Virus record (IMG/VR): IMGVR_UViG_3300036770_007495
Coordinates: 160,704 to 224,703 of that record
Source: a virus
DNA length: 64,000 nucleotides
Reading direction: 5' to 3' (one strand)
The notes beneath the pieces were generated by a model. It saw nothing but the letters and a program-made list of their open reading frames with translations. It was not told the origin of the DNA and made no database searches. Position numbers and translations under genes: made by a program. Positions 1 through 62,090 of the stretch are shown one piece after another (within the stretch, counting starts at the first letter, position 1; each line of letters starts with the position of its first letter).

Positions 1-737
1 CCTGATCCATATGGCACAATGCTGCCCACTGGAACCTGATTGCTGCTCAACACCATGTATTGAGTTTGATAAGTTCCAGGAGTTGCAAACACAAGATTGC
101 CAAAGCTGTCAGTTGTCAAGACAGATCCTGCAGCACCATCAAATGCGGGCATGTTGAATACTGCTGCACCACCAGCTGCACCAAACTGAATTGCTTGTGA
201 CAATTGCAAAAATGCATTGTTGCGAGGTGTAATTTGATCAAACTGTTGATTTGCAGTTGTTTGAAGCTCACGCGCACCAACAAATTCTAATCCTAATCCT
301 GCAAGTTCAGTGTCAAGTTGCGCTGCACTCACAGTCTTGACACTCATGACACCAGTTGTTGCATTCAACTGCAATGTCTCATCATCAACTCTGTTGGCAA
401 GAGGTCCAGAGAAAAGTGTCCAATTGCCAGCGGTGCTGTATGGCTTTGCTGCAAGGCGATAAATGCCACCAGCAATGCTGTCATATGCTACATCACCTGC
501 TTCTGCTTCTGCAGCCCATGTGCTTGGATGCCCTGTTCCAAAATAAAGAAACAAAGATGTTGGAAGTGCACCAGTTGTTACACCATCACCAACAAAAAGT
601 CTGCGAGTATCAACAGTGTAGCCCAGTTCTCCTTCAGAGAGTACAACATTTGTACGTTCAGTATTAGAGCCGCGACGAATAAGCAGCTTTAAAAGTGTAT
701 TTTCTGTGATTTCAATTCTACCAGCACTATTGCTCAT
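1..737 (-). CDS. Tail fibre/appendage protein, N-terminal part (partial)
   Basis: The ATG lies at 735-737 and the frame stays open to the window edge, so about 245 residues are visible and the C-terminus is missing. Residues 36-52 read GELGYTVDTRRLFVGDG after an RRG element at 21-23. This is the short N-terminal module often seen in phage fibre and tropism-determinant proteins, and it recurs at residues 27-43 of the next upstream gene, so the two are paralogous at their N-termini. The rest is Ala/Thr/Gly-rich and beta-prone with no recognised domain. A late promoter sits 5 nt before the ATG and overlaps the stop codon of the upstream gene. A role as a virion appendage is inferred from the module and the neighbourhood. 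Confidence 0.7.
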   Translation of the reverse strand, partial: MSNSAGRIEITENTLLKLLIRRGSNTERTNVVLSEGELGYTVDTRRLFVGDGVTTGALPTSLFLYFGTGHPSTWAAEAEAGDVAYDSIAGGIYRLAAKPYSTAGNWTLFSGPLANRVDDETLQLNATTGVMSVKTVSAAQLDTELAGLGLEFVGARELQTTANQQFDQITPRNNAFLQLSQAIQFGAAGGAAVFNMPAFDGAAGSVLTTDSFGNLVFATPGTYQTQYMVLSSNQVPVGSIVPYGS

Positions 738-742
738 GCTTA

Positions 743-749
743 TATTTAG
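743..749 (-). promoter_or_regulatory. T4-like late promoter (CTAAATA), 5 nt before the ATG at 737
   Basis: CTAAATA on the minus strand contains the TAA stop (746-748) of the gene upstream. Flanking repeats pair GCT-CTTA with TAAG-AGC and leave CATG, which includes the start codon, bulged. Confidence 0.75.
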
Positions 750-1585
750 CTAAGAGCCATCAATTCGCTAGGAATATCAAACACAGGAATTGCTTTTTTA
801 CCATATGGTGCGCCCATGTCAACAACAATGAATCCTGCTGATGACAGAGTGTATGTTGCAGAACCTGTTCCAGTGGATGCAAGATACTGAGTTGTGCCTT
901 CTTTTGAACCCAACGGAAACTGGTTGTAGAACCCTCCAAATGCACCATATGAGCTCAAAGGCAAACGTGATGCATTGTAGAGTGATGACAATGCAATGGC
1001 ATTGCTCTTGATCTGAAGAGATTGTTCATCAATTGCTGCACACAAAGTCATTGAAGCTGTTGAGCCAATGCCCTGACCCAGCAAAGTTGAAACATTGATG
1101 TTTGCATTTGTGATTGTACCAACACGCAATTGATTGCTGCTAATGATGATGGTGGAATTATCCACTCTTGCACTCAATCCTTGTGTTGTTGCTGCAATTG
1201 CACCAGACAAGAATACAAGTGAAGAACTTGCAGTATTGATGGTGAGTTGATTGGATCCATTAAATTTGATGGAAGTACCATCAACTTGTGCACCAATATA
1301 CTTCCATGCTGATGTTTGCGTTGCATCAGTACCAGTCAATTGGTACAGCAAACTGTTTTCAACAACCAAGTCACCTTGATATGCTGCAAGAGATGTCTTG
1401 TTTGCAGCAATGGGTGTAAATGATTTAGACCCCACAACCAATCCGCCCATTGTTGCACCATCACCAACAAAAACTCTTTTGGAGTCAATGGTGTAACCCA
1501 ATTCACCTTGATCAAGAGTAATCAGCAGTCTTTGTGATTCAAGACCGCGGCGCAATTTGAGTTTAATGATTTTTATGTCAGGCAT
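746..1585 (-). CDS. Tail fibre/appendage protein
   Basis: The protein has 279 residues. I chose the ATG at 1583-1585 (MPDIKII) because it follows the previous stop by 5 nt; a longer frame to 1624 would overlap the upstream gene. Residues 12-14 (RRG) and 27-43 (GELGYTIDSKRVFVGDG) form the same N-terminal module as the 1-737 gene, a motif of phage fibre proteins. The middle and C-terminus are Ser/Thr/Ala-rich beta-prone sequence without recognised catalytic residues. There is no promoter of its own, so it is probably co-transcribed with the 1591-3192 gene. Likely a virion appendage subunit by context. Confidence 0.7.
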   Translation of the reverse strand: MPDIKIIKLKLRRGLESQRLLITLDQGELGYTIDSKRVFVGDGATMGGLVVGSKSFTPIAANKTSLAAYQGDLVVENSLLYQLTGTDATQTSAWKYIGAQVDGTSIKFNGSNQLTINTASSSLVFLSGAIAATTQGLSARVDNSTIIISSNQLRVGTITNANINVSTLLGQGIGSTASMTLCAAIDEQSLQIKSNAIALSSLYNASRLPLSSYGAFGGFYNQFPLGSKEGTTQYLASTGTGSATYTLSSAGFIVVDMGAPYGKKAIPVFDIPSELMALS

Positions 1586-1590
1586 ATTGT

Positions 1591-3192
1591 TTAGGGAATA
1601 TAAAATTCTTTGACGTACTTCCACACACCAATGCCGCCATCACATTCACCGCTGTGTGCAGCTCTGAAGCTTGTAGAGATAGTAGCGGATTTGATGCGAA
1701 TAAAACCAGTTGCAACTGCAGGCTGCAATCCATACTTTGTCAAATAATCAGTGATGTATGAAGTTGTAGTTCCTGTGCCAGATCTATTCTTGTAACAGAA
1801 AGCAATGTTGCGCTTGTCAATGTTGGGTGCATTGTTTGCGTCTGTTGTCTTGATGTCTACAGCAGAAGAAGTTGTTACATTTGTGACACTTGCATAGAAA
1901 TTCTTGTAATACAATTGATTGTCAAGATAAATGATGAGAGTTGTTACTCTATCAATAACTTTTGGTCTGCTGCTTGTGCCTGTTGATCTTGTGAAAGAAG
2001 AATTGTAAACATTGTCGCTGATGTCTGTTACAGAATTGTTGACAGTGAATGTGTAAAAACCGTCTCTGCACTTGTCATATGCGCGTGTAACAATTTCTAC
2101 AGCAATGAGTTTATTCTGCGCCATGTATTCAGGTGTTATTGTGTAAGTTTGAACACCAGTATTAATTGAGCAGCTGCCTTTCTCACCCTTTTCAGCAAGA
2201 TAGTAGTAATCTTTGTATCTGAAATTTGTGTAGAACATTTGAGGTTCATCAATTGCATAAAAGAGCGTATTGCCAATTGTGAGAACATTCATGTTGGTGC
2301 TGTCACCATTTTGACTGTACACACTAACTGATGATACTCCTTGTGAAAGTACAATTGCCCATCCATTGTCACCTGTTGCAGGAGTTGCAGGATTTGCTGC
2401 AGGGTTCACATGAGATCCTTTGGATACCTGAGTCATGTACATGTTGTTGTTGTACTGCTCATTGAACCAAACGGTGTATCTTCCTGCACCGCTGCGAGAT
2501 ACACTTGCAACATTGTATGCAGAACGAATAGTGGTGCTAACGCCCAGTGTGCCGGGTGCTGCAGTAACATTTTGTGGCAGCGGAAATGTAAAGTTGTTTG
2601 TATCAGTTCTTGTAACTGGGTATGAACCATTAAGTGTTGCATCAGAAGCAGTGAGGCTAATGATTTGTCCTGTAGCAAGACCATGATTAGCTTTGGTGCA
2701 CTGTACAATGCCACCGCTTGAACCTGTATCAACTGTATATGAAATTCCTGTGATGGGCTTGCCATCAAAATTTACCCAGCATTGACGAATGGGGCTAAGA
2801 AAAATTTGCTCAACAAGTCCTTTGCTGTTGACGTTGATGGTATCAATTTGAGAATATGATCCTTCAGGATTTGGATCCAAGTCAGGCAATGCTTCCAAAA
2901 CAACTTGACCAAAATCTACATGTCCATTGCCATCTGTCACAAGTGGAAACCCTTCACCAGAAACAGAATCAGTGTTAGTGTATTCCAACTCACCAGCAGA
3001 AAGTTTGCCAGAAATTGTGACGCTGCCACTCACCTGAATGCCATTGCCAGATACACCCAAAGCAAGTGCAGAAGCTTGACCACTACCATCATACATGGTT
3101 TGCAATCCCTGTGTAGGAAGTGCTGCACCTTCAGCATGCAATACACCCTCGTAGGTAGATTCAACTGTTTGATCGAGTAAACTGGTAGGCAT
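1591..3192 (-). CDS. Tail fibre/appendage protein
   Basis: A 533-residue protein starting MPTSLLDQTVES. Around residues 165-215 there is a beta-rich stretch with NHGLATGQIISLT, NGSYPVT and NNFTF, a pattern I associate with virion surface modules in environmental phages (memory, not searched). The end (GIGVWKYVKEFYIP) is aromatic, as is common where fibre tips fold. First gene of a two-gene unit with 746-1585. A late promoter lies 7 nt before the start. No enzymatic motif seen. Function is inferred from composition and position among tail genes. Confidence 0.6.
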   Translation of the reverse strand: MPTSLLDQTVESTYEGVLHAEGAALPTQGLQTMYDGSGQASALALGVSGNGIQVSGSVTISGKLSAGELEYTNTDSVSGEGFPLVTDGNGHVDFGQVVLEALPDLDPNPEGSYSQIDTINVNSKGLVEQIFLSPIRQCWVNFDGKPITGISYTVDTGSSGGIVQCTKANHGLATGQIISLTASDATLNGSYPVTRTDTNNFTFPLPQNVTAAPGTLGVSTTIRSAYNVASVSRSGAGRYTVWFNEQYNNNMYMTQVSKGSHVNPAANPATPATGDNGWAIVLSQGVSSVSVYSQNGDSTNMNVLTIGNTLFYAIDEPQMFYTNFRYKDYYYLAEKGEKGSCSINTGVQTYTITPEYMAQNKLIAVEIVTRAYDKCRDGFYTFTVNNSVTDISDNVYNSSFTRSTGTSSRPKVIDRVTTLIIYLDNQLYYKNFYASVTNVTTSSAVDIKTTDANNAPNIDKRNIAFCYKNRSGTGTTTSYITDYLTKYGLQPAVATGFIRIKSATISTSFRAAHSGECDGGIGVWKYVKEFYIP

Positions 3193-3199
3193 TTGCTTT

Positions 3200-3206
3200 T
3201 ATTTAT
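3200..3206 (-). promoter_or_regulatory. T4-like late promoter (ATAAATA), 7 nt before the ATG at 3192
   Basis: ATAAATA on the minus strand in the short gap between two structural genes. No Shine-Dalgarno sequence is present between motif and start. Confidence 0.75.
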
Positions 3207-3215
3207 CGCAATCGG

Positions 3216-5099
3216 TTAGTTTAACAATACTGTTTTAGAGCCTGATACAGAAGGTACAAAATTATTGATGCGTGTTTTTGTAATTTGAAGCACATCATTT
3301 TGCAAATCCCATATTTGCTTCAAAACTCTGTTGAGTGTACCTGGACTTGATGCAATTTCATTGTCATGCACATAGAAGTTGTTGGCATTGTCAATGGTAA
3401 TGCTGTTGAATTCATCATTTGTCAAAGCAACAATGCCTTGATTTACAAGATTGCCGATGTAGTCATAACTTGCTGCATATCTACCAGCAAGATAATTCTT
3501 TATGTACATTGTATTGGAGATGATTTTGTGCAATTCTTTGTTGAGAACAAATGCTTGAATCATTTCTGAATCATTAACTCTCAAGTTGTTGATTGCATAA
3601 ATGGTGAAGTCAGTTGATCCGAGCACACTTGTGTAGAGTGTTGGTTCTGTGTAATGTAAAATTCTGTTGAATGACTCACTCAAATATCCTGCAAAAACAA
3701 AAATCTCATCAGCATCCAAGTTGCTAGGCAAGAGTGACATGCTGCTTACTGCAATGCCTTTTCTCACAATGGCTCTTCCATCATTCCAGCGCCATTTTGC
3801 GCGATTGTAACGAGAAAACTCATTGTTCCAAATGTGGTCATTTGTAAATCCGCTTTTGTAAAATAGCCATTTGCCAATGCTTACATCTGGTCTGTTGACA
3901 AACTTTTTGAACACGTTTACATTGGTAAACATGTACATGATGTTGCTGTCATTGTATGAAAACTGCAATCCCTTGAAATATTCACCATCAATCAATTCAT
4001 CCTGCAAAATGTATTCTTGCTCAATGTTGAGATCCACATCACAAATTTGCAGAGTATTTGTTTTGGTTGTTAAATTGCTCACAATTACATAGACCTTGTC
4101 AAAAACATCATTGTATTGAAAAGCACGTGCAACTGTTGATGTGCCAATGGTGAATGCTCTGGTTGTTATGTATGATAGATTAGAATCATACACTTTGATG
4201 CATCTGTTGCCCTTGTCATGCACATACACACGATCAATGGAATCATTTGCATAAATTAAATCAGGGCCATTGAATTTTGTCTTGGCAAGAGCATTACCCT
4301 CACCACCAATTGATGCAACTAAAAATCTCTTGTTGGTAAGAGGTACATCATTGTTGTAAAAGCCACCAACATCATATTTGTAGACATTGTTTTGCTTAAC
4401 ATCACAAACATACATGAAATTGTTAGTGATGCTGAAGCTGCTGAGTTGCAAAAATGTTAAATCGCTGTTGGTATCAACATTTGCATTGTCATGAGTCACT
4501 TGCAATGATGTTAAATCAGGATTGCTACTCAACGCAATGATGGATGTAGGCGAAATGCCCAAGAAAGCATAGCCTACTTCATCTTGAATTTTTACAGCTT
4601 GCAGCTGAATTGCATTACCAATTGCACCAAGACCAACACCAGAAAAAGGTGTAAAAGTTGTAGCATCAGTTGGATCCTGTGCAATCCATGCTGGCAATGC
4701 ACTTAAACAACCTGCTGCACGATCAAAATTGTGTGGAATATCATTGCTTGCAATGAAGCATTTGGAATACAGATACAAAGAGTTGTTGTAGAGCTTATAC
4801 AGTCGGTCATTCAAAACTCTACCATTGAATGTCTCATTTGCTGCAATTTGTACATCAACATTGAAGTCATATGGCAGAGACAATTCATCTTTCAGAATTC
4901 TATCTCTAAAAAACTTTGAAGTCACCACATCTGCTGCATACGTATTTTTATCTGCAAGTTCTGCTGCATTATCAGCAATGTCTCTAGAAGCATAGATGTT
5001 TCCATCAACTACATGGTAGTATCCAACGTAGTCATTTCCGGTCAATGCAAAGTCTTTGCCGTTGGTGTATCCAACTTTGATGGAGGAGTAATCAATCAC
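3216..5099 (-). CDS. Tail/baseplate protein with NHL-like beta-propeller repeats
   Basis: A 627-residue protein whose start codon is GTG at 5097-5099, 5 nt from a late promoter. The only nearby ATG is out of frame and meets a stop at once. Residues ~225-420 contain repeating blade-like units such as FMYVCDVKQNNVYKYD, RVYVHDKGNRCIKVYD and DKVYVIVSN, the spacing of NHL/beta-propeller blades. Flanking parts are rich in Asn and Tyr. It directly follows the 1309-aa vWA protein, which has similar propeller blades, so the two may share ancestry or contact each other in the tail. No catalytic residues recognised. Carbohydrate or protein binding at the tail tip is plausible but inferred. Confidence 0.6.
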   Translation of the reverse strand: MIDYSSIKVGYTNGKDFALTGNDYVGYYHVVDGNIYASRDIADNAAELADKNTYAADVVTSKFFRDRILKDELSLPYDFNVDVQIAANETFNGRVLNDRLYKLYNNSLYLYSKCFIASNDIPHNFDRAAGCLSALPAWIAQDPTDATTFTPFSGVGLGAIGNAIQLQAVKIQDEVGYAFLGISPTSIIALSSNPDLTSLQVTHDNANVDTNSDLTFLQLSSFSITNNFMYVCDVKQNNVYKYDVGGFYNNDVPLTNKRFLVASIGGEGNALAKTKFNGPDLIYANDSIDRVYVHDKGNRCIKVYDSNLSYITTRAFTIGTSTVARAFQYNDVFDKVYVIVSNLTTKTNTLQICDVDLNIEQEYILQDELIDGEYFKGLQFSYNDSNIMYMFTNVNVFKKFVNRPDVSIGKWLFYKSGFTNDHIWNNEFSRYNRAKWRWNDGRAIVRKGIAVSSMSLLPSNLDADEIFVFAGYLSESFNRILHYTEPTLYTSVLGSTDFTIYAINNLRVNDSEMIQAFVLNKELHKIISNTMYIKNYLAGRYAASYDYIGNLVNQGIVALTNDEFNSITIDNANNFYVHDNEIASSPGTLNRVLKQIWDLQNDVLQITKTRINNFVPSVSGSKTVLLN

Positions 5100-5104
5100 A
5101 TGAA

Positions 5105-5111
5105 TATTTAC
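5105..5111 (-). promoter_or_regulatory. T4-like late promoter (GTAAATA), 5 nt before the GTG at 5099
   Basis: GTAAATA on the minus strand includes the TAA stop (5108-5110) of the preceding gene. The exact 5-nt spacing supports the GTG start. Confidence 0.7.
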
Positions 5112-9037: not shown

Positions 9038-9058
9038 ATGAGTATTTAACTCATTGCA
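9033..9058 (-). repeat. Inverted repeat spanning a late promoter and start codon
   Basis: Arms TGCA-ATGAGT and ACTCAT-TGCA pair as 10 bp around a 5-nt loop. One unpaired base is the A of the ATG at 9037. The late promoter motif forms loop and inner stem. RNA read through from the 10015 gene would bury the start codon; RNA begun at the promoter would lack the upstream arm. Confidence 0.7.
9043..9049 (-). promoter_or_regulatory. T4-like late promoter (TTAAATA), 5 nt before the ATG at 9037
   Basis: TTAAATA on the minus strand at the loop of the 9033-9058 inverted repeat. Confidence 0.75.
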
Positions 9059-10015: not shown

Positions 10016-10020
10016 ATGTG

Positions 10021-10027
10021 TATTTAT
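10021..10027 (-). promoter_or_regulatory. T4-like late promoter (ATAAATA), 5 nt before the ATG at 10015
   Basis: ATAAATA on the minus strand in the 15-nt gap between genes. Confidence 0.8.
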
Positions 10028-10030
10028 GCG

Positions 10031-13650: not shown

Positions 13651-13656
13651 CACAGT

Positions 13657-13663
13657 TATTTAA
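13657..13663 (-). promoter_or_regulatory. T4-like late promoter (TTAAATA), 6 nt before the ATG at 13650
   Basis: TTAAATA on the minus strand, flanked by a 5-bp repeat (13646-13650 with 13668-13672) that includes the ATG. Confidence 0.7.
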
Positions 13664-14152: not shown

Positions 14153-14157
14153 AATGC

Positions 14158-14164
14158 TATTTAA
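14158..14164 (-). promoter_or_regulatory. T4-like late promoter (TTAAATA), 5 nt before the ATG at 14152
   Basis: TTAAATA on the minus strand overlaps the TAA stop (14161-14163) of the upstream peptidase-like gene. Confidence 0.75.
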
Positions 14165-17097: not shown

Positions 17098-17652
17098 TCA
17101 GTCAAAGATTGATTTGCCAGGAGTGAGCTTGCTGTTGACTTTCATGCTGCCTTTGCTCATGAGAGTCTTGCCCTTGTCACCAAGTGCCTTTGGTTCTGCT
17201 TCAAGATCAACGTTAACAGAGGCATCAGCCTTGCCGCCAGTCTTGCCTGTTACAGTACCGCCCACTTTCATCTTGCCCTTGCCCATGAGATCATGGCCTT
17301 TGTTGCCAATTGGCTTTGGAGAAGGCTCAACTACAACGCTTTCTGGAAATGCTCCTTCATCTTCGTCTTCATCATCCATCATCTCATCACCGAGATCAGC
17401 GCCAAGATCTTCTGCGCCCAATTCTTCATCGGTCATTTCATCTTCCATGCCGCCTTCAAGCTGGCCCATGAGTGCATCATGAAGCTTCTGTGCAAGTTCA
17501 CGTGGAAGAGAAATTGTGATTTCTGTTTCATCACCCATGTCATCAGAAACATCAACATCAAGAGCTTCAAGGTCTTGGTTTTCAGTATCCATGTCAGATG
17601 GGTTGTCCATCACTTCTTCGTAGAGAGTATCAAAAAGAGATTTTTGTGTCAT
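17098..17652 (-). CDS. Nested in-frame short form of the 17098-17904 gene
   Basis: An internal ATG at 17650-17652 (MTQKSLFDTLYEEV) has CTAAATA exactly 5 nt upstream, the preferred geometry in this genome. It would give a 184-residue product lacking the basic N-terminal region. This is inferred from promoter spacing only. Confidence 0.45.
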   Translation of the reverse strand: MTQKSLFDTLYEEVMDNPSDMDTENQDLEALDVDVSDDMGDETEITISLPRELAQKLHDALMGQLEGGMEDEMTDEELGAEDLGADLGDEMMDDEDEDEGAFPESVVVEPSPKPIGNKGHDLMGKGKMKVGGTVTGKTGGKADASVNVDLEAEPKALGDKGKTLMSKGSMKVNSKLTPGKSIFD

Positions 17653-17904
17653 ACCGGTATTTAGGGCCACTGCCTGTGCTTTTTCAACTCCTAAAGAAAA
17701 TTTTTGAGGCTCAAACAAATTATTTTTCTTGCCCTTCTTGGAGTCCAGTGCTGGTACAAAGCCTGAAGCATTGGCAGGGCCACCTTTTTTGTCCATGTCC
17801 ATGATTTCAGCGCCCATGGTTGGCTTTTTAATTTTCATTGTTGGCAGTGGCTTGCCGCCTTTGCCGCCTTTGAGTTTGATTTTGACTGTAGATTTGCGTT
17901 GCAT
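17098..17904 (-). CDS. Lys/Asp-rich late protein (possible head-core or assembly protein)
   Basis: A 268-residue protein. I chose the ATG at 17902-17904 because a late promoter lies exactly 5 nt upstream. Residues 1-40 are Lys/Gly-rich (KIKLKGGKGGKPLP). Residues ~120-200 are extremely acidic (ELGAEDLGADLGDEMMDDED). The C-terminus carries two similar units, KPIGNKGHDLMGKGKMKV and KALGDKGKTLMSKGSMKV. The family is not recognised. The charge pattern resembles prohead-core or scaffold proteins, which is inference. A second in-frame start with its own late promoter at 17652 suggests a shorter product too. Divergent from the large terminase. Confidence 0.65.
   Translation of the reverse strand: MQRKSTVKIKLKGGKGGKPLPTMKIKKPTMGAEIMDMDKKGGPANASGFVPALDSKKGKKNNLFEPQKFSLGVEKAQAVALNTGMTQKSLFDTLYEEVMDNPSDMDTENQDLEALDVDVSDDMGDETEITISLPRELAQKLHDALMGQLEGGMEDEMTDEELGAEDLGADLGDEMMDDEDEDEGAFPESVVVEPSPKPIGNKGHDLMGKGKMKVGGTVTGKTGGKADASVNVDLEAEPKALGDKGKTLMSKGSMKVNSKLTPGKSIFD
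17658..17664 (-). promoter_or_regulatory. Internal late promoter (CTAAATA), 5 nt before the ATG at 17652
   Basis: CTAAATA on the minus strand inside the 17098-17904 coding region, in frame with an internal ATG. Confidence 0.55.
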
Positions 17905-17909
17905 AGCAT

Positions 17910-17916
17910 TATTTAG
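17910..17916 (-). promoter_or_regulatory. T4-like late promoter (CTAAATA), 5 nt before the ATG at 17904
   Basis: CTAAATA on the minus strand, back-to-back with the plus-strand terminase promoter. TTGCA/TGCAA repeats flank it and overlap the start codon. Confidence 0.75.
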
Positions 17917-17923
17917 GGCTGCA

Positions 17924-17930
17924 ATAAATA
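17924..17930 (+). promoter_or_regulatory. T4-like late promoter (ATAAATA), 8 nt before the terminase ATG
   Basis: ATAAATA on the plus strand, separated by 7 nt from the divergent minus-strand motif. Confidence 0.7.
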
Positions 17931-17938
17931 AAAGCACT

Positions 17939-20250: not shown

Positions 20251-20257
20251 ATAAATA
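20251..20257 (+). promoter_or_regulatory. T4-like late promoter (ATAAATA), 5 nt before the sheath ATG
   Basis: ATAAATA on the plus strand between the tube-like and sheath genes. Confidence 0.8.
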
Positions 20258-20262
20258 TCTAC

Positions 20263-22960: not shown

Positions 22961-22967
22961 ATAAATA
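22961..22967 (+). promoter_or_regulatory. T4-like late promoter (ATAAATA), 5 nt before the ATG at 22973
   Basis: ATAAATA on the plus strand, just downstream of the sheath terminator. Confidence 0.8.
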
Positions 22968-22972
22968 CTAAC

Positions 22973-23483: not shown

Positions 23484-23924
23484 ATGGCTCACAAAGAGTT
23501 TAAACAAGGCGTTTACAAGCCCATCAACAGGCAGAAATACATTGGTGATAAACTGCCTTTTTATAGATCAGGTTATGAGCTAAAATTCATGCGATGGGCT
23601 GATGCTAACCCCAATGTTTTGAAGTGGGGAAGTGAAAGCATCATTGTCCCTTACAAGAGCCCCATTGATGGTAAAATGCATCGCTATTTTGTAGATAATG
23701 TGGTCATCATCAAAGAAGGAGAAAACATCAAAAAATATCTCATTGAGATCAAACCACACAAACAAACACAGCCGCCAACTGCTCATGGCAACAAAAAACA
23801 GACCACCATTTTGTATGAGCAAGCTACATATGTCATCAATCAAGCCAAATGGGAAGCAGCAAAGAAGTGGTGCAAAGATCATGAATGGGAGTTTCTCATC
23901 TTAACAGAGAAGCATTTGCCATAA
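23484..23924 (+). CDS. gp4: Head completion protein (gp4-like)
   Basis: A 146-residue protein; T4 gp4 is 150. Strongly reminiscent of T4 gp4: YKPINRQKYIGDKLPFYRSG, YELKFMRWADANPNVLKWGS (31-50), then HRYFVDNVVI and YLIEIKPHKQ. E32, D71 and E88-x-K90 form a TnsA/PD-(D/E)XK-like set, in agreement with a nuclease-fold head-completion factor that trims or protects packaged DNA ends before tail joining. It follows the 22973 gene by 16 nt. Its stop codon lies inside the next late promoter. Confidence 0.9.
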   Translation: MAHKEFKQGVYKPINRQKYIGDKLPFYRSGYELKFMRWADANPNVLKWGSESIIVPYKSPIDGKMHRYFVDNVVIIKEGENIKKYLIEIKPHKQTQPPTAHGNKKQTTILYEQATYVINQAKWEAAKKWCKDHEWEFLILTEKHLP

Positions 23925-23927
23925 ATA
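23921..23927 (+). promoter_or_regulatory. T4-like late promoter (ATAAATA), 5 nt before the ATG at 23933
   Basis: ATAAATA includes the TAA stop of gp4. Two adjacent ATGs follow; the second is at the preferred 5-nt distance. Confidence 0.75.
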
Positions 23928-23932
23928 CTATG

Positions 23933-24829: not shown

Positions 24830-24836
24830 ATAAATA
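24830..24836 (+). promoter_or_regulatory. T4-like late promoter (ATAAATA), 5 nt before the ATG at 24842
   Basis: ATAAATA on the plus strand, 9 nt after the lysozyme stop. Confidence 0.8.
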
Positions 24837-24841
24837 CTCAT

Positions 24842-25390
24842 ATGGCACAGACAAATCAAACCATTGGAAACTTTTATGACCGCGCAGTAGCTCGTGAATT
24901 CTCACGCGACTTCTTGTTTCGAGTTCTGAACATCACTTTTGCAGGCGGTGCTGTCTTCAATGAAGATGAGCTTGTTTATGCAAAAACAGCAAAACTACCT
25001 GCTCGTCAAATTACCAACGTGCAGAGCAAGTACATGGGTCTCAACTTCAACTTAGCTGGCACAGCTGTATATCCAGGCAGCGACAGCTATGCAATTTCTT
25101 TTTATTGTGATGCCAATTCTTTGCTGAGAAACAAATTTTTGCAGGAATCTCGTCGTGTGTTCGATGATGCAACCAGCACAGGTGATTACAACATTGCTGG
25201 TCGTGCAAGTTCCATCACTTTGTTGCAGCTTGACAAGGCATTGGAACCAGTTTCCACATTCCGTCTTGTGGGTGCCAACATCAAAAACGTGGGTGAAATT
25301 CAATACAACATGGCAGATGGCACTGGTCAGCCTGTTAATTTTGATGCTACCATCTCTTATCACTTCTTTGAAGAGAACGCACCAGCCTAA
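24842..25390 (+). CDS. gp19: Tail tube protein (gp19-like)
   Basis: A 182-residue protein. SRDFLFRVLNITF (~20-32), KTAKLPARQITNVQSKYMGL (~49-68), FNLAGTAVYPG and AISFYCDAN, then FRLVGANIKNVGEIQYNM (~140-157) follow the gp19 pattern I recall from T4-like cyanophages. Of the three tube-like genes here it is the best match to a main tail tube, which polymerises inside the sheath and conducts DNA. Late promoter 5 nt upstream; stop overlaps the next promoter. Confidence 0.8.
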   Translation: MAQTNQTIGNFYDRAVAREFSRDFLFRVLNITFAGGAVFNEDELVYAKTAKLPARQITNVQSKYMGLNFNLAGTAVYPGSDSYAISFYCDANSLLRNKFLQESRRVFDDATSTGDYNIAGRASSITLLQLDKALEPVSTFRLVGANIKNVGEIQYNMADGTGQPVNFDATISYHFFEENAPA

Positions 25391-25396
25391 TAAATA
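25390..25396 (+). promoter_or_regulatory. T4-like late promoter (ATAAATA), 5 nt before the GTG at 25402
   Basis: The first A is the last base of the upstream TAA stop. CCTAA/TTAGG repeats flank it, the second reaching the GTG. Confidence 0.75.
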
Positions 25397-25401
25397 GTTA
25401 G

Positions 25402-27682: not shown

Positions 27683-27689
27683 ATAAATA
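27683..27689 (+). promoter_or_regulatory. T4-like late promoter (ATAAATA), 6 nt before the ATG at 27696
   Basis: ATAAATA on the plus strand between the hub-factor and tape-measure genes. Confidence 0.8.
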
Positions 27690-27695
27690 TCTTGG

Positions 27696-29595: not shown

Positions 29596-29621
29596 CCATT
29601 GATGGATAAATACTATCATGG
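29596..29621 (+). repeat. Imperfect inverted repeat around a late promoter and ATG
   Basis: CCA-TGAT (one bulged T) pairs with ATCA-TGG over 7 bp. The ATG at 29618-29620 lies wholly in the downstream arm. Confidence 0.5.
29606..29612 (+). promoter_or_regulatory. T4-like late promoter (ATAAATA), 5 nt before the ATG at 29618
   Basis: ATAAATA on the plus strand in the loop of a small inverted repeat. Confidence 0.8.
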
Positions 29622-34511: not shown

Positions 34512-34517
34512 TTCTTT

Positions 34518-34524
34518 TATTTAT
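34518..34524 (-). promoter_or_regulatory. T4-like late promoter (ATAAATA), 6 nt before the ATG at 34511
   Basis: ATAAATA on the minus strand, diverging from the early-type dUTPase promoter. Confidence 0.75.
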
Positions 34525-34533
34525 TTTTGTGCC

Positions 34534-34561
34534 TTGAAAACTCAAATGCATCTGTTACATT
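34534..34561 (+). promoter_or_regulatory. Sigma70-like promoter for the dUTPase operon
   Basis: TTGAAA at 34534-34539, a 16-nt spacer and TACATT at 34556-34561, ending 6 nt before the ATG at 34568. It predicts transcription starting at or next to the start codon. Confidence 0.6.
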
Positions 34562-34567
34562 GACTAT

Positions 34568-36647: not shown

Positions 36648-36653
36648 CAACAT

Positions 36654-36660
36654 TATTTAT
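36654..36660 (-). promoter_or_regulatory. T4-like late promoter (ATAAATA), 6 nt before the ATG at 36647
   Basis: Sits in a 5-bp palindrome (AACAT/ATGTT, 36649-36663) and is divergent from the gp25 promoter 11 nt away. Confidence 0.75.
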
Positions 36661-36663: not shown

Positions 36664-36693
36664 ATTGGCTGCTAAATAATAGCAATGGCCAAT
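36664..36693 (+). repeat. 11-bp inverted repeat with the gp25 start codon as a bulge
   Basis: ATTGGC-TGCTA pairs with TAGCA-GCCAAT around a 5-nt loop. The three bases left unpaired are exactly the ATG at 36685-36687. The late promoter lies across the loop. Confidence 0.75.
36672..36678 (+). promoter_or_regulatory. T4-like late promoter (CTAAATA), 6 nt before the gp25 ATG
   Basis: CTAAATA on the plus strand, inside the 11-bp inverted repeat. Confidence 0.75.
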
Positions 36694-38981: not shown

Positions 38982-41125
38982 GTGATGTTCCTTACAGCTA
39001 CGTATACTTTGATGTACTCAATTTCTCAAATGCATATTCTACCACAGGATATGCACTGAGTGTGTGTCCATTTACATTCTCACCTCGTGTGCAGAATGAT
39101 GCTACACTTTCCAACAAGAGAATTTTGTGGGACTTTGGTGATGGTACAACATCAACTGCAGTGACTGCAATGCACGCATACAACTTGCCTGGAACTTATC
39201 AGGTTACCATGTATTTGTATGATGCTCAAGGCAATGCATATTACAATGCATATGATGCTACAGTAACAGTTAGCAATTATTTGAATGATGCCATTGTTTT
39301 GTCTGCAAACAATTTCAACTTCATTACATCAGATGTAAATGACAATGCATTTGATGTCTATAGATTCAACTCTTGGCAAAACAAGCCAAAAACAGAATTC
39401 ACTATCTTGTTGCATGCCAGCGGCAACAATGCTCCTTACATTGATGAGCAGCAATACAACAAAGACAAATATGCGCATTTGAAGAAGTATAGCCAGTTTT
39501 ATCAATTGGTTTACAACAACAATTTGCAATTGTTTGAATATGTTCCAACCAACAACATTGCAACAACATCAACCAATTTGTATGCAAGATTGTCATCAGG
39601 TGCATTGGTGCCATGTGCTGCTTCTGATGCAGGATCCATCTTCATTGGCACATCTGGATATGCACAATGTGCTTATGCGGATGATGAGCCTACCACAAGT
39701 CATCCAACGCTCATTTTTGCTTCATTTGACAACGTTGCTTTCAAGGATCCCAACAATCTATACCTTGACACACCTTTTAATAAACAAACGTTGCAGACCA
39801 ATGCGCAATCGTTTTATTGCACCATCTCCTCACTTGCACCAAACAAAATCTTCATCACCAGCACAGGCATAAGTGCAATGCCAGTCAATACTGTGCAGTT
39901 CACCAATGCTCCAATTCCATTTGTGGTGCAAATTGCAACTGCAACAGATGCAGCATGCAAATATTGTTCAAATCTTAAGCGTGTGGATGCAATGGGTTCA
40001 TTGTCAGCCAACACCATTCAAATTTATGCATTTGATGCAACCACACAGCAAGTGCTCACAAGCGCCATTGTGGATGATTTTGGTGAATTTGCAAACTACA
40101 ACACAGGCATTTACAAAGGCTACTGTGCATTCTCTTCACCATTGACTGGTGTAAAAATTGCTGCAGTTGCAAGCGTATCTTCTGTTTTTGGAACTGTAAC
40201 ATTGTCTGCAACAACTGATGCATTGGAGATTGTTGACAACAACTTTGCTGTATTCAAAATCAATGAAAACTTTGACCAAGCAGCAAAGTACAAAAGCTAC
40301 CGCTTCCAAGAAACATTGCTTGACAAAGATGTGTTCTTTGATTCATTCTTGGGCACCATTGTTGGCAATGTTTCAGCAGCACCTGATGCACCAGGCAAGC
40401 GCATTCATGAAAAGCAAGCCAACTTTGTAAACAACACACAATTTGTTGATGTGTGCAACATTGATGCATTATATGCACTCAAAACCATGTTGGATGCCAA
40501 CATCTATCAGTTTGAAAAGTACAATTTTGCCACACCTGCAGAATTGTCTCGCATCATTGATCTCATCAGCATTAAACAGAGCAAACTTTGGGGTGCCATC
40601 AATGAATATGCTGAAAACTTTGATAAAAAAGGATATGTGACCAATGCATTGTATGGCATCAACTTGGGTGATGCACTTGATTCACAAACAACAATTTTGA
40701 CTGCCGGATCTGCTGCAGGTCACATTGTTGCATATGAAAAATTCAGTGGTAAGTATTTGCTCATCAACACTGATTTGTTGAGCTCAGCCAATGTGCAATT
40801 CATTGATGCAAACAAGCAAACATATGCATTGAGCGCATACAATGACTTTTGGGGGTGGGGGTTGGTGTTGCCTGATCCATTTGATGCAACAATCTTCAAT
40901 CACTACTATGATTTCTATGCATATGTTGCAACACCTGCTGGAAATGTACTCAACTCCACCATCAACTGGTCTGATGCACTCAACACCATCACCAGATCAC
41001 AAAGCTCATATGCTTCATGGACTGCAAAAAATGGCACCATGGAAAAACTTTTGCAACAAGCTCTCTTGCAAGGATTGACTGTGTTTTCCAACATAACAGG
41101 CCAGAGTGCTGCTTACATTGCATAA
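38978..41125 (+). CDS. Large baseplate-associated protein with N-terminal PKD domain
   Basis: A 715-residue protein. ILWDFGDGTTSTAV (~49-62) then HAYNLPGTYQVTMYLYD (~67-83) is a clear PKD domain. The remaining ~600 residues are beta-rich, Asn/Ala/Phe-rich and unrecognised. It follows gp6 with an ATGA overlap, where T4 relatives carry peripheral wedge proteins, so a wedge or fibre-docking role is inferred. A short G-rich stretch (near 40851-40865) encodes FWGWGLVLP. Its stop lies in the next late promoter. Confidence 0.6.
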   Translation: MSDVPYSYVYFDVLNFSNAYSTTGYALSVCPFTFSPRVQNDATLSNKRILWDFGDGTTSTAVTAMHAYNLPGTYQVTMYLYDAQGNAYYNAYDATVTVSNYLNDAIVLSANNFNFITSDVNDNAFDVYRFNSWQNKPKTEFTILLHASGNNAPYIDEQQYNKDKYAHLKKYSQFYQLVYNNNLQLFEYVPTNNIATTSTNLYARLSSGALVPCAASDAGSIFIGTSGYAQCAYADDEPTTSHPTLIFASFDNVAFKDPNNLYLDTPFNKQTLQTNAQSFYCTISSLAPNKIFITSTGISAMPVNTVQFTNAPIPFVVQIATATDAACKYCSNLKRVDAMGSLSANTIQIYAFDATTQQVLTSAIVDDFGEFANYNTGIYKGYCAFSSPLTGVKIAAVASVSSVFGTVTLSATTDALEIVDNNFAVFKINENFDQAAKYKSYRFQETLLDKDVFFDSFLGTIVGNVSAAPDAPGKRIHEKQANFVNNTQFVDVCNIDALYALKTMLDANIYQFEKYNFATPAELSRIIDLISIKQSKLWGAINEYAENFDKKGYVTNALYGINLGDALDSQTTILTAGSAAGHIVAYEKFSGKYLLINTDLLSSANVQFIDANKQTYALSAYNDFWGWGLVLPDPFDATIFNHYYDFYAYVATPAGNVLNSTINWSDALNTITRSQSSYASWTAKNGTMEKLLQQALLQGLTVFSNITGQSAAYIA

Positions 41126-41128
41126 ATA
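41122..41128 (+). promoter_or_regulatory. T4-like late promoter (ATAAATA), 5 nt before the ATG at 41134
   Basis: ATAAATA contains the TAA stop (41123-41125) of the upstream gene. Confidence 0.8.
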
Positions 41129-41133
41129 TCATC

Positions 41134-47115: not shown

Positions 47116-47121
47116 TTGAGT

Positions 47122-47128
47122 TATTTAT
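47122..47128 (-). promoter_or_regulatory. T4-like late promoter (ATAAATA), 6 nt before the ATG at 47115
   Basis: ATAAATA on the minus strand; presumably drives the five-gene fibre/glycan unit down to 41547. Confidence 0.8.
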
Positions 47129-49003: not shown

Positions 49004-49010
49004 TGTCGGT

Positions 49011-49017
49011 TATTTAT
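49011..49017 (-). promoter_or_regulatory. T4-like late promoter (ATAAATA), 7 nt before the ATG at 49003
   Basis: ATAAATA on the minus strand in the 31-nt gap between two fibre genes; CCAT/ATGG flanks place the ATG in a short arm. Confidence 0.75.
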
Positions 49018-51974: not shown

Positions 51975-51989
51975 ATCTCGTTGCCCGGA

Positions 51990-51996: not shown

Positions 51997-52008
51997 GCAT
52001 CATTTTCA

Positions 52009-54946: not shown

Positions 54947-54950
54947 GAGG

Positions 54951-57617: not shown

Positions 57618-57638
57618 GCATGTATTTATGCATGGTTC
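57611..57638 (-). repeat. Perfect 10-bp inverted repeat spanning a late promoter and ATG
   Basis: GAACCATGCA (57611-57620) and TGCATGGTTC (57629-57638) flank an 8-nt loop holding most of the ATAAATA motif. The start codon (57615-57617) is inside one arm. It lies between the early operon ending at 57669 and the late 888-aa gene. Confidence 0.8.
57623..57629 (-). promoter_or_regulatory. T4-like late promoter (ATAAATA), 5 nt before the ATG at 57617
   Basis: ATAAATA on the minus strand in the loop of the 57611-57638 inverted repeat. Confidence 0.8.
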
Positions 57639-57668
57639 TTGAGAGATCCTGCGGATTAAGCAGCAAAA

Positions 57669-58895: not shown

Positions 58896-58898
58896 ATT

Positions 58899-59180
58899 TT
58901 AAAAAGGTTCATTTACAATTTCTACATCAAATTCATCACAACCACAAAACTCACCATCCCATCTCTCTCCTTTTCCAAAGATTTCGATTTCATATTCGAG
59001 TTGTGTATTGCGAAGTCCGCGAACACATATTGCTTTCATACCTGGAAAATTAACACAGCTTTCCCATTCGTCAAGTGAAACTCTTTGAAGTTGTTCAGGT
59101 GCATTGCAATTGTAATCATATACTTCTGTTCCTTCTTTGAACCAAGTGTCAGGCTTTGCTGTTAGTTTGACGAATTTCAT
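58899..59180 (-). CDS. Hypothetical protein
   Basis: A 93-residue acidic protein (MKFVKLTAKPDTWFKEGTEV). Start at 59178-59180 overlaps the stop of the 27-codon frame upstream (ATGA), favouring it over the earlier in-frame ATG at 59207. Contains FGKGERWDGEFCGCDEFDV. Domain not recognised. Confidence 0.55.
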   Translation of the reverse strand: MKFVKLTAKPDTWFKEGTEVYDYNCNAPEQLQRVSLDEWESCVNFPGMKAICVRGLRNTQLEYEIEIFGKGERWDGEFCGCDEFDVEIVNEPF

Positions 59181-59260
59181 AATTTTGATCTTTGTTTGTC
59201 TATCCACTCGGAAATAATTTCCGCAATTTTTAAACCAATATGTAATAAAAACAATGGCAT
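59177..59260 (-). CDS. 27-residue hydrophobic peptide
   Basis: Short frame beginning MPLFLLHIGLKIAEIISEW with a basic tail KQRSKL. It starts 3 nt after the preceding stop and ends with an ATGA overlap into the next gene, filling an otherwise unexplained gap. Amphipathic, possibly membrane-associated. Too short to judge by composition alone. Confidence 0.4.
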   Translation of the reverse strand: MPLFLLHIGLKIAEIISEWIDKQRSKL

Positions 59261-59263
59261 AAT

Positions 59264-59539
59264 TTATTCTTTAATAGGCCATTCAAACATATTAAGATGA
59301 AAGAAAGCGTCACTCAATCCTTCACCTTCTAACCACACTGCACACCATGAAGAGTAAACTTCACAATAGCGAACAGTATAGATTTTTCCAACCTCTAAGT
59401 TGTCTTTGGCAAATTGAATGACATTGACAAAGTGCGGATAAAACATTCCATCAGCACCTTTGAATCTTACTTTATGACCTTTACAAGGCCATCTGCTATC
59501 TTTATTTTCAAAAAGAGCAAAAAATTGTTCGTCGTTCAT
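59264..59539 (-). CDS. Hypothetical early-type protein
   Basis: A 91-residue protein. RWPCKGHKVRFKGADGMFYP and KIYTVRYCEVYSSWCAVWLE look like an SH3-like small barrel. Overlaps the upstream gene by one base (TGATG). Not recognised. Confidence 0.55.
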   Translation of the reverse strand: MNDEQFFALFENKDSRWPCKGHKVRFKGADGMFYPHFVNVIQFAKDNLEVGKIYTVRYCEVYSSWCAVWLEGEGLSDAFFHLNMFEWPIKE

Positions 59540-59871
59540 CAGCAGTAGGTTTTTGTGTCAGCAACACTGCAAACAGTTGTTCCTAACTCTGGTGGTGGTG
59601 ATCCTGTGCCGTCACTGCAAATGATTTTGTGCGGATCAAATCCTGGATATGTCGGCATGGGAGCATAAGGAGGGTATTTTGGATATTCTGTATCTTTTGG
59701 CCTCCTTTTTTCCCATTCTTCTTCTTTCTTTTCTTTGCGAATAGGAGTTTTCTTCTCAAACAGCAAGGTCAAATGATCTCTGATGATTTGAGTCTGTTCT
59801 TTATTGATGGTTTCTGCATTGGAAATCTCAAGAAATCCATGCAACCATATTGCGAATTGTTCGTAGTTCAT
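59539..59871 (-). CDS. Conserved hypothetical phage protein
   Basis: A 110-residue protein. MNYEQFAIWLHGFLEISNAE followed by TINKEQTQIIRDHLTLLFEK is a pattern I recall from short proteins found in many T4-like phages. A Lys/Glu and Pro/Tyr-rich linker leads to a C-terminus with CSDGT...CSVADTKTYC. Function unknown; member of the early-type unit. Confidence 0.65.
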   Translation of the reverse strand: MNYEQFAIWLHGFLEISNAETINKEQTQIIRDHLTLLFEKKTPIRKEKKEEEWEKRRPKDTEYPKYPPYAPMPTYPGFDPHKIICSDGTGSPPPELGTTVCSVADTKTYC

Positions 59872-59874
59872 AAT

Positions 59875-60198
59875 TTATTCGTCTCTCCAGCGTTTGTTAG
59901 GAATACCTCGTTTATCTGCAACATATTGTGCTACACCATCATACCCATCTCTGCGATACATTTCAAAAAACTTTGCAATGTCACATGTTGGTAGATTTTC
60001 AGCATCAGCAGCAGGCGCAAAGTAATCGTTGATGTTGATGTAAAGATTGATGGTACCATCTCCATAATCATTGCCAACGAACAATATACTTTCATCCAGA
60101 AGAAATGCAACCATGCTTTCAACATCTGCATGAATGCCAAGATTATGCTCAGTCAAGTCAATGTAATAAGTGCGATCAATGGTAATGGTTTCAGTCAT
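59875..60198 (-). CDS. Hypothetical protein
   Basis: A 107-residue acidic protein (MTETITIDRTYYIDLTEHN). Start at 60196-60198 gives the 8-nt overlap with the release-factor gene that is typical of this unit. It contains NLYININDYFAPAADAEN and ends GIPNKRWRDE. Not recognised. Confidence 0.55.
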   Translation of the reverse strand: MTETITIDRTYYIDLTEHNLGIHADVESMVAFLLDESILFVGNDYGDGTINLYININDYFAPAADAENLPTCDIAKFFEMYRRDGYDGVAQYVADKRGIPNKRWRDE

Positions 60199-60589
60199 GT
60201 CGTTCTGTTTCTTGGTATTCAACCCATTTGCCTTTTTCATCTTTCATCTCAATTTTGAGATTGTCAGGGTGCATGTCTCGCTCCACTGCATCTTCAACTC
60301 TCTGCTTGCGCAGTTTTGCTTCTTCAGCAGATTCAAGTCGGCGACTTGTTTCAAGCTTCAGCCACAATTGAAACTTTTCTGAATTGGCCATTCGCCTGAA
60401 TGCTTCAACTTTGTTGCGTCGTTGTTCGCGGTGGTCACGAGAGATGCCTTCTGCACCACTTGCCTTGTGGCGGCAGCGACAAGCAGATGCAGTTTTGTTT
60501 TGATGCTGACCGCCTTTGCCACCAGCACAAAAATACATCCAGTCGCAATCATCCGCAGTAACACTGAAAAGTAATTCTTTATCACTCAT
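60191..60589 (-). CDS. Release factor-like GGQ domain protein
   Basis: A 132-residue protein. CAGGKGGQHQNKTASACRCR (21-40) carries the GGQ motif (26-28) that triggers peptidyl-tRNA hydrolysis, followed by a basic helix (RDHREQRRNKVEAFRRM). It has no codon-recognition domain, so it is like ArfB/YaeJ or mitochondrial ICT1-type rescue factors. It may free ribosomes stalled during infection. Start chosen at 60587-60589 (MSDKELL). Confidence 0.85.
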   Translation of the reverse strand: MSDKELLFSVTADDCDWMYFCAGGKGGQHQNKTASACRCRHKASGAEGISRDHREQRRNKVEAFRRMANSEKFQLWLKLETSRRLESAEEAKLRKQRVEDAVERDMHPDNLKIEMKDEKGKWVEYQETERHD

Positions 60590-61109
60590 TGTTTTTCTTA
60601 CTATAGAGTTTATCCCATTCTTTGTCAACTGCATTCAAAGCATCGTGGGCAAGCTGCGCCAAATGTTGTCTCAAAATATTACCATCATCTAAATTATAAT
60701 TAGATGCAATATCTCTCAAAGCATTATGCATAATATCCCACTGATTTTGGAAGCATTCATAATCTTTTAAATTGATTTCACCGTATTTGCATTTGACTGC
60801 TTGACAGTTGGTGGGAGAGCAGCAGCCAGTCTCACCACAACTACCGCAAGTTTCGCAGTAGTTAGAATCTTCTGGATAATTGTCAGGGTCACAAATTAGT
60901 GGTCTGACTTGATTATTGTCAGTGAACTCTGCAACGATTTCTTCTTCAAGAAAAAAACAAACTTCTTTAGAAGTGGGGATTATAAATCCGTAACAAATTT
61001 CGCCTACGATCTCTACCTCTCCCGTAAAAACTCCCTCACCCATGTAACGATTGTAATCGTATGGGCCTTGGCAGTTGATCATGTATTTTTTGTCTTTGAT
61101 TGGAATCAT
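60582..61109 (-). CDS. Cys-rich hypothetical protein
   Basis: A 175-residue protein. Between residues ~80 and 108 eight cysteines occur in a cluster (CETCGSCGETGCCSPTNC), suggesting a zinc or metal site. The C-terminal part is helical (LRQHLAQLAHDALNAVDKE). Domain not recognised. Starts 1 nt after the upstream stop and overlaps the GGQ gene by 8 nt. Confidence 0.6.
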   Translation of the reverse strand: MIPIKDKKYMINCQGPYDYNRYMGEGVFTGEVEIVGEICYGFIIPTSKEVCFFLEEEIVAEFTDNNQVRPLICDPDNYPEDSNYCETCGSCGETGCCSPTNCQAVKCKYGEINLKDYECFQNQWDIMHNALRDIASNYNLDDGNILRQHLAQLAHDALNAVDKEWDKLYSKKNNE

Positions 61110-61110
61110 A

Positions 61111-61701
61111 CTATTGTTTAACTGGTTTATATCCTTCGTAAATGCTTTCTTTCAAAAGATCAGGTGAGAGGGTTTTGTACCAACCACCTCGAACGCAAAG
61201 AACACCAGGCTTGCCAGTTACTTCGCAAGTCTTGTTGCACAAATACTCAGCCATGTGAATCATGCCACGAACTTGCTCATCACCGCCTGAGATGTAAAAA
61301 CGAAGCTCGCCATATTTTTCTTTGATTTGATCAATCTTTACAGCAGGTGGATAAACTTTGTCATATTCAACACACTTGTAAGAACGACGACGAAACTTCT
61401 CAATGAAAGCAAAAACTGGTTTATTGAACTGCCACTTGTTGAACTGCGGAAACAGTTTGATAAACTTCCTGTGCATCCAATCTAGAGATTCAGCAATGCT
61501 AATCCAAACGTAATACATCTTGTTAACTACTCTGCGCTTGTGGCGATATGTATGCTTGGTGTAGCTTGTGATTGAGCCGCACAAGTCAGCTACAATCTGC
61601 TTCCATCCATTGGGTACCCATGCACCGCATGGGCAGGGATCACCTTTTTCATAAAAGAGGTGAGGATACTTGAGCACAAGATACTCTTCAAACTGTTCCA
61701 T
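61111..61701 (-). CDS. Conserved hypothetical phage protein
   Basis: A 196-residue protein. GDPCPCGAW near the N-terminus and PAVKIDQIKEKYGELRFYIS (~137-156) followed by CNKTCEVTGKPG resemble a widespread unnamed phage protein (recall). Basic middle region. First gene of the long early-type unit running to 57669; a sigma70-like promoter lies directly upstream. Confidence 0.65.
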   Translation of the reverse strand: MEQFEEYLVLKYPHLFYEKGDPCPCGAWVPNGWKQIVADLCGSITSYTKHTYRHKRRVVNKMYYVWISIAESLDWMHRKFIKLFPQFNKWQFNKPVFAFIEKFRRRSYKCVEYDKVYPPAVKIDQIKEKYGELRFYISGGDEQVRGMIHMAEYLCNKTCEVTGKPGVLCVRGGWYKTLSPDLLKESIYEGYKPVKQ

Positions 61702-61706
61702 GCATT

Positions 61707-61734
61707 AATATGCATTCAAACAGACAGAAGTCAA
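61707..61734 (-). promoter_or_regulatory. Sigma70-like promoter for the early-type unit
   Basis: TTGACT (61729-61734 on the minus strand), a 16-nt spacer and CATATT (61707-61712), ending 5 nt before the ATG at 61701. A TATTAA at 61705-61710 with an 18-nt spacer is an alternative -10. Confidence 0.5.
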
Positions 61735-61737
61735 CAA

Positions 61738-61772
61738 AAAAAGAGAGAAGTGTTGCCACTTCTCTCTCTTGA
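61738..61772 (-). terminator. Rho-independent terminator after the lipoprotein gene
   Basis: Read on the minus strand, GAGAGAAGTG / CACTTCTCTC with a 4-nt loop is followed by a T-run. Confidence 0.85.
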
Positions 61773-61802
61773 TCTTACTTGGTCTTACTTGGTCTTACTT
61801 GG
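61773..61802. repeat. Tandem 10-bp repeat over the lipoprotein stop
   Basis: Three near-identical 10-bp units of the form GGTCTTACTT. Each unit carries AAGTAA on the minus strand, so the stop codon at 61795 is repeated downstream. Confidence 0.8.
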
Positions 61803-62061
61803 ACGGTTGAGGTGTTCCCACCTCTACAATTGGTCGCCGAGGAGCATACCTGATGCCTGCAGTGAATGAACCATAAGGTTCAACACCAAAGACGTTGGTA
61901 GAGGCATGCCCACTCACCTGATATCCCTTTTCAACCTTTTCAGTTGAGAAGCCAACGGATGCACCTGTGCGTGCCTGATCAAGTGCTGCATCAGTTGTGC
62001 TCTTGACAGAGGTGCAGCTGACGAGACCCATGAGCATTGTTGCTAGTAGTAGTGTTTTCAT
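61795..62061 (-). CDS. Small outer-membrane-type lipoprotein
   Basis: An 88-residue protein. MKTLLLATMLMGLVSCTSVK is a lipoprotein signal with lipobox LVSC, so Cys16 should be lipidated. Mature ~73 residues include GYQVSGHASTNVFGVEPYGS and a Pro-rich end. Position among early genes but with a late-type promoter (TATAAATT, 5 nt before the ATG). A spanin-like lysis role or superinfection exclusion are both possible; no partner spanin was seen. Confidence 0.7.
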   Translation of the reverse strand: MKTLLLATMLMGLVSCTSVKSTTDAALDQARTGASVGFSTEKVEKGYQVSGHASTNVFGVEPYGSFTAGIRYAPRRPIVEVGTPQPSK

Positions 62062-62090
62062 GTTGTAATTTATAATACGTTCAACAAAAA
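62055..62090 (-). repeat. Imperfect inverted repeat around late-type promoter and ATG
   Basis: TTTT-TGTTG pairs with CAACA-AAAA on the minus strand over 9 bp; the two unpaired bases are TG of the ATG at 62061. The promoter motif lies in the loop. Confidence 0.55.
62067..62074 (-). promoter_or_regulatory. Late-type promoter (TATAAATT), 5 nt before the ATG at 62061
   Basis: One mismatch from TATAAATA, at the preferred distance. It sits at the boundary of early-type genes. Confidence 0.55.

Follow-up and report, generated by a model that had tools for sequence, protein, structure and literature searches.

Late promoter boxes of the T4 type placed for predicted leaderless starts in a T4-related phage genome and its relatives

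In the 224,703-bp genome of a T4-related phage, we found T4-type late promoter boxes most often 5 nt ahead of start codons that lack Shine-Dalgarno (SD) sequences. We consider it likely (probability of about 0.83) that these late promoters are set for a leaderless start, that the early promoters are set alike, and that leaderless initiation would be a property of the whole phage. A prediction of leaderless late mRNAs had been made in a first-pass annotation of part of this genome; those of its predictions at the level of sequence that were tested hold, but its scope was too narrow, as early genes appear to be included and the major capsid gene 23 is an exception.

Late boxes and start codons in the genome

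The stretch of DNA that was analysed (the window, 64,000 nt) corresponds to bases 160704-224703 of the IMG/VR record IMGVR_UViG_3300036770_007495. A 127-bp direct repeat is common to both ends of the record, which is thus a complete circular assembly, and 297 genes were called in it using a simple coding-score gene caller. Core genes of the T4 superfamily are present (gp17, 18, 20, 21, 23, 25, 6, 43, 44, 46, 47, and uvsW). The window itself encodes the terminase, sheath, tube, a tape-measure-like protein, gp25, gp6, and the clamp loader gp44, while gp20, gp21, gp23, gp43, gp46, gp47, uvsW, uvsX, gp41, and gp32 are encoded outside it. No isolated phage close at the DNA level was found, and the best identities with cultured relatives are 38% for the terminase, 34% for the capsid, and 28% for gp6. 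The clade is a large, apparently uncultured group of T4-related water phages. It may correspond to the Far-T4 phages, uncultured members of the T4 superfamily from fresh and marine waters (Roux et al. 2015, PMC4360716) that carry phoH and whose gp23 is divergent and longer; phoH is found in this genome too. Promoters are not mentioned in that paper.

The window contains 44 NTAAATA sites, 26 of which lie 5-8 nt ahead of an ATG or GTG that opens an ORF of 40 codons or more (gap 5, 16 sites; gap 6, six; gaps 7 and 8, two each; Table 1). Two of the 26 are doubtful, namely 25417 (antisense ORF) and 54946 (ORF of 42 aa only). This is essentially the count of the first-pass annotation (29 motifs, with 17, 6, and 2 at gaps 5, 6, and 7), the small excess of which probably reflects weaker boxes, and the boxes it had placed 5 nt before the GTG starts at 5099 (GTAAATA) and 25402 were recovered as well. 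Boxes at 36648-36660 (minus strand) and 36672-36684 (plus strand) form a divergent pair. We also observed two late boxes within 17652-17937 on the minus strand, each with a 5-nt gap to an in-frame ATG of one and the same ORF, which stands opposite the terminase start and possibly makes two protein forms.

Table 1. Late boxes and sigma70-type promoters located in the window, and the gene 23 leader located elsewhere in the genome. Positions run from the promoter element to the base next to the start codon and are window positions unless marked otherwise.
Element	Spacer (nt)	Start codon	Gene	Position	Strand
Late box CTAAATA (743-749)	5	ATG 737		738-749	-
Late box ATAAATA	7	ATG 3192		3193-3206	-
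Late box GTAAATA	5	GTG 5099		5100-5111	-
Late box TTAAATA	5	ATG 9037	1309-aa protein	9038-9049	-
Late box ATAAATA	5	ATG 10015	tail collar fibre	10016-10027	-
Late box TTAAATA	6	ATG 13650		13651-13663	-
Late box TTAAATA	5	ATG 14152		14153-14164	-
Late box CTAAATA	5	ATG 17652	internal start, ORF of 17904	17653-17664	-
Late box CTAAATA	5	ATG 17904		17905-17916	-
Late box ATAAATA	8	ATG 17939	terminase large subunit	17924-17938	+
Late box ATAAATA	5	ATG 20263	tail sheath	20251-20262	+
Late box ATAAATA	5	ATG 22973		22961-22972	+
Late box ATAAATA	5	ATG 23933	lysozyme-domain protein	23921-23932	+
Late box ATAAATA	5	ATG 24842	tail tube	24830-24841	+
Late box ATAAATA	5	GTG 25402		25390-25401	+
Late box ATAAATA	6	ATG 27696	tape-measure-like protein	27683-27695	+
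Late box ATAAATA	5	ATG 29618		29606-29617	+
Late box ATAAATA	6	ATG 34511		34512-34524	-
Sigma70-type CTTGAA...TACATT	6	ATG 34568	dUTPase	34530-34567	+
Late box ATAAATA	6	ATG 36647		36648-36660	-
Late box CTAAATA	6	ATG 36685	gp25-like baseplate wedge	36672-36684	+
Late box ATAAATA	5	ATG 41134		41122-41133	+
Late box ATAAATA	6	ATG 47115		47116-47128	-
Late box ATAAATA	7	ATG 49003		49004-49017	-
Late box ATAAATA	5	ATG 57617	888-aa protein	57618-57629	-
Sigma70-type GTTGAT...TATAAT	6	GTG 63030		63031-63068	-
Hairpin leader			gene 23	genome 83770-83911 (outside window)	

Counted over the complete genome, the 5-nt peak is kept: [ACT]TAAATA occurs 105 times, with gaps to called starts of 5 nt in 30 cases, 6 nt in 12, and 7 nt in five, and with three or fewer at every other distance. 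ATAAATA at 5 nt is the commonest heptamer at a fixed distance before called starts genome-wide (22 genes), and control heptamers of like composition produced no comparable peak in the whole genome. When the upstream regions were shuffled 1000 times with dinucleotides preserved, gap 5 was occupied 0.20 times on average (maximum 3; maximum at any position 4), compared with the 30 boxes observed.

SD matches of at least 4 nt precede 7% of the late-box genes and 15% of the other genes, against 18.6% of control stretches. SD enrichment at other distances was not found except upstream of gene 23. The start codons of promoter-proximal genes are AUG (or GUG) without SD.

Spacing in relatives and signs of the transcription start

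Hundreds of related IMG/VR contigs have the 5-nt peak as well, as does a 203-kb relative (G002), so that the motif-to-start statistics proposed as a check in the first-pass annotation give the same peak in this genome and in its relatives. Clade members other than this genome are mostly partial contigs to which a mechanical ORF rule was applied, the start being the nearest downstream ATG with an open frame of 50 or more codons. Under this rule, 80 capsid-matched contigs (70-92% identity) have 252 boxes at gap 5, three at gap 4, and 36 at gap 6. De-duplicated sets of contigs chosen through gp21, DUF1501, gp55 (counted around the gp55 genes), and gp6 retain the peak, the last with a gp6 identity of only 39-46%. 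Among 317 orthologues of late-box genes, 172 have the box at gap 5, 42 at gap 6, and 21 at gap 7. Spacing is kept across orthologues and the spacer sequence differs; in the prohead protease gp21, for example, 60 of 85 orthologues are at gap 5 with a weakly constrained spacer. All 112 gp23 sequences of the group, that of this phage among them, cluster on a single branch of a gp23 tree, which separates from T4, S-RSM4, Mosig, and Cr30 at a split with low support.

The late system of T4 (gp55/gp33/gp45) resembles the one described here in its TATAAATA-like box, its gp55 homologue, and its late gene classes (sheath, tube, portal, prohead protease, and terminase). However, T4 TATAAATA sites lie 14-28 nt from starts that have a strong SD, and the first box base is T in T4 but A, C, T, or G in this phage. 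S-RSM4, P-SSM2, and Mosig belong to the same superfamily and share the NATAAATA late box and gp55, but their boxes are mostly about 15-34 nt upstream and thus leadered (S-RSM4, 19 nt and farther by the ORF rule; pelagiphage Mosig TATAAATA sites, mostly 16-32 nt; P-SSM2 annotated genes, centred on 21-25 nt). The 5-nt peak was not found in XG4, phiM9, Cr30, or Rhodothermus phage RM378, which are also T4-like. The cultured Aeromonas phage Aeh1, outside this clade, has CTAAATA with C at -12 as its late promoter (PMC1524935), as do part of the boxes here.

Late-box genes lie close to the upstream gene (median distance 17.5 nt), and the spacing might accordingly be a by-product of genome compaction, with most protein coming from longer transcripts that are read through or processed. 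We regard this as improbable, because T4, P-SSM2, S-RSM4, and Mosig are compact too and, like cultured T4-like phages in general, mostly keep about 14-34 nt between box and start, because early genes have more intergenic space (median 37 nt) with the same spacing, and because the peak in the capsid-matched contigs is so sharp. Read-through transcripts would, moreover, be without SD as well. A still smaller probability attaches to the idea that the boxes are promoters but that translation begins at in-frame codons farther downstream, on mRNAs with ordinary leaders. Start codons are indeed set here by ORF rules and known from sequence alone, yet orthologues retain the box-adjacent ATG where their starts align, an SD signal is absent from the genome, and the second codon is biased towards the GCN/TCN type that is typical of true N-termini (G at +4, 0.50; C at +5, 0.55).

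Promoters set for a leaderless start, the reading that we prefer, predict where transcription begins. Relative to +1, the late boxes of T4 span -13 to -6 (PMC1524935), and a 5-nt gap thus places +1 on the A of the ATG. The base at -1 is A in none of 34 late gap-5 genes and none of 18 early gap-6 genes, and in 63 of the 194 genes without a late or early promoter at the start; it is T or C in 93% of 198 pooled orthologues. A pyrimidine at -1 and a purine at +1 are the usual pattern of bacterial transcription initiation, and the observed preference fits such initiation. In gap-7 orthologues, A stands at box+6 in 74%, as if these messages started two bases before the AUG. In gap-6 orthologues the figure is only 49%, which counts against our explanation.

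The late sigma factor gp55 is encoded outside the window (PHROG match, E 1e-25; phmmer matches to Mosig, E 1e-19, S-RSM4, 5e-16, and T4, 8e-9). Also against our explanation, sequence searches with T4 and P-SSM2 queries and Pfam detected neither a T4-type gp45 nor a gp33, although a diverged gp33 could be missed because it is short. A protein without family match (genome 146252-146968) gave a low-confidence model (pLDDT 54) that resembles the PCNA fold (E 8e-10), and by this fold it is a candidate for a highly diverged gp45 clamp.

The motif, its spacing and conservation, gp55, the -1/+1 preference, the absence of SD, and the contrast with T4 and cyanophages are all read from the sequences; the actual 5' ends, their use by ribosomes, the role of the clamp, and the identity of the host are inferred. 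The gp55-like sigma factor of the phage would direct the host RNA polymerase to the late boxes, probably joined by a sliding clamp. Selection would have fixed the position of the box such that the start codon begins at box end + 6, with transcription of gap-6 and gap-7 genes starting 1-2 nt before that codon. Late mRNAs are accordingly predicted, with support from the spacing, to begin at the start codon, that is, with AUG and rarely GUG, and a ribosome with pre-bound initiator tRNA would recognise this 5'-terminal codon. The most likely cause would be a host in which translation depends little on SD pairing.

Early promoters, gene 23 and genes without promoters

Genes without a late box show a sharp peak of TATAAT-type -10 hexamers 5-6 nt before the ATG, together with TTGA[CT] at 28-30 nt. 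A hexamer at -12 to -7 again places +1 on the ATG. The pattern GTTG[AC]-N17-19-TANN[AC]T has 30 sites from which an ORF start is no more than 60 nt away, and in 18 of them an ATG lies at 5-8 nt; no such case was found in T4, S-RSM4, Mosig, or XG4. Relatives share the arrangement (23 matches, versus one in a reversed control). As these sigma70-type promoters (GTTGA...TATAAT) end about 6 nt before the ATG, early mRNAs should be leaderless too, and promoters of the host-sigma type would be set in the same way as the late ones. A GGAAAC/GAAAC-like element is often found within the early -35/-10 spacer at genome 12000-50000, for example before genome 23268 and 32257, and is possibly an extra recognition element.

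Gene 23 differs from the other late genes. It has a hairpin leader that is conserved across the clade, with an SD-like AAAGGA. By eye, the stems vary in sequence and keep their pairing (GCATAT/ATATGC, GTACTTT/AAAGTAC, and CATAGAT/ATCTATG), and the hairpin is often followed on its 3' side by GGTCGA, then AAAGGA or GAAAGA, and then the ATG. No Rfam family matched the capsid upstream regions at gathering scores, and the leader is a candidate cis-regulatory RNA. It perhaps lets the capsid message outcompete leaderless messages or be regulated apart from them. The late box upstream of gene 23, when found, is mostly 55-114 nt away, and the box thus behaves like a promoter and not like part of a start-codon signal.

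These two gene classes bear on whether ATAAATA could be a signal in the RNA instead of a promoter, such as an A/U-rich ribosome-standby site of the kind proposed for SD-poor bacteria. Its enrichment on the sense strand by starts in a genome without SD would agree with this, but we give it a very slight chance. The box matches the T4 late box in sequence and occurs in the same genomes as a gp55 gene, the box of gene 23 lies far upstream when a leader intervenes, and Y at -1 with A at +1 are features of transcription starts. In early genes, moreover, this place is taken by another element (-35/-10), and two unrelated promoter types under one placement rule argue strongly against a translation signal.

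About 194 of the 297 called genes have neither a promoter at the start nor an SD, a further point against our explanation. Most are close to an upstream gene on the same strand (59% within -60 to 30 nt) and are therefore probably internal cistrons, which need another route of initiation. The upstream gene is overlapping or abutting for 83 of 193 promoterless, three of 57 late, and five of 46 early genes.

Precedents, host and further features of the genome

Leaderless phage mRNAs are already known, since middle and late transcripts of the Thermus phage phiYS40 are mostly without leaders (PMC3594737), like those predicted here. phiYS40 has been reported to raise IF2 and lower IF3. Unlike in phiYS40, early genes appear leaderless too in the phage described here. 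To our knowledge, phiYS40 does not use a gp55/late-box system. In T4, the textbook example of late transcription, mRNAs have leaders and are SD-driven, and in the open-access literature, to which our search was confined, we found no report of leaderless mRNAs from T4-type late promoters. The same promoter and sigma factor would here be shifted by about 20 nt relative to T4, bringing promoter and start codon together. If this holds, one virus clade would possess a large natural set of leaderless genes, with gene 23 predicted to be set apart by its structured leader, and would show phage promoters adapting to the mode of translation initiation of the host. Start codons could then be annotated exactly from promoters, and there would be an indication of what this widespread and apparently uncultured group of phages infects.

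One late-box gene (genome 72465-73721) encodes a DUF1501 protein and is shared with 22 related phage contigs. Among cellular proteins, its closest relatives are those of Verrucomicrobiales (59-62% identity), followed by Planctomycetes. This gene suggests hosts in the Verrucomicrobiota, a phylum that we name tentatively, at a little under even odds. Akkermansia is among the Verrucomicrobia listed as SD-scarce (PMC10783764). In 800 kb from one Verrucomicrobia single-cell genome, an SD peak was absent and TANNNT was in excess at 6 and 8 nt ahead of starts (26 and 21, vs about 7); no clear peak was seen in a second genome. The capsid protein had no match in 388 Verrucomicrobiota genomes, which thus provide no direct host link. 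An Actinobacterial host was considered because leaderless mRNAs are common there, and was rejected, WhiB being absent from this genome and from the 203-kb relative. On balance, we favour the view that the whole clade runs both early and late infection on leaderless mRNAs, gene 23 excepted, matched to SD-scarce hosts that are perhaps Verrucomicrobiota.

The genome also encodes 23 tRNA genes clustered at genome 62309-71668, and at least two late-box genes begin directly after tRNA-like 3' ends (genome 59068 and 71680). Just ahead of a late-box gene, ARAGORN called a tmRNA (genome 58613-59056) with the tag GAEQCMLLNQTLG; because this tag is odd, the call may be false or may represent a phage tmRNA. 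A short ORF in the tRNA region (genome 69446-69739) has a weak match to gp23 (E 3e-5) and is possibly a fragment of a capsid gene. Finally, the minus strand carries a cluster for sugar or cell-surface modification at genome 106589-117504, including an epimerase, a C-methyltransferase, and others.
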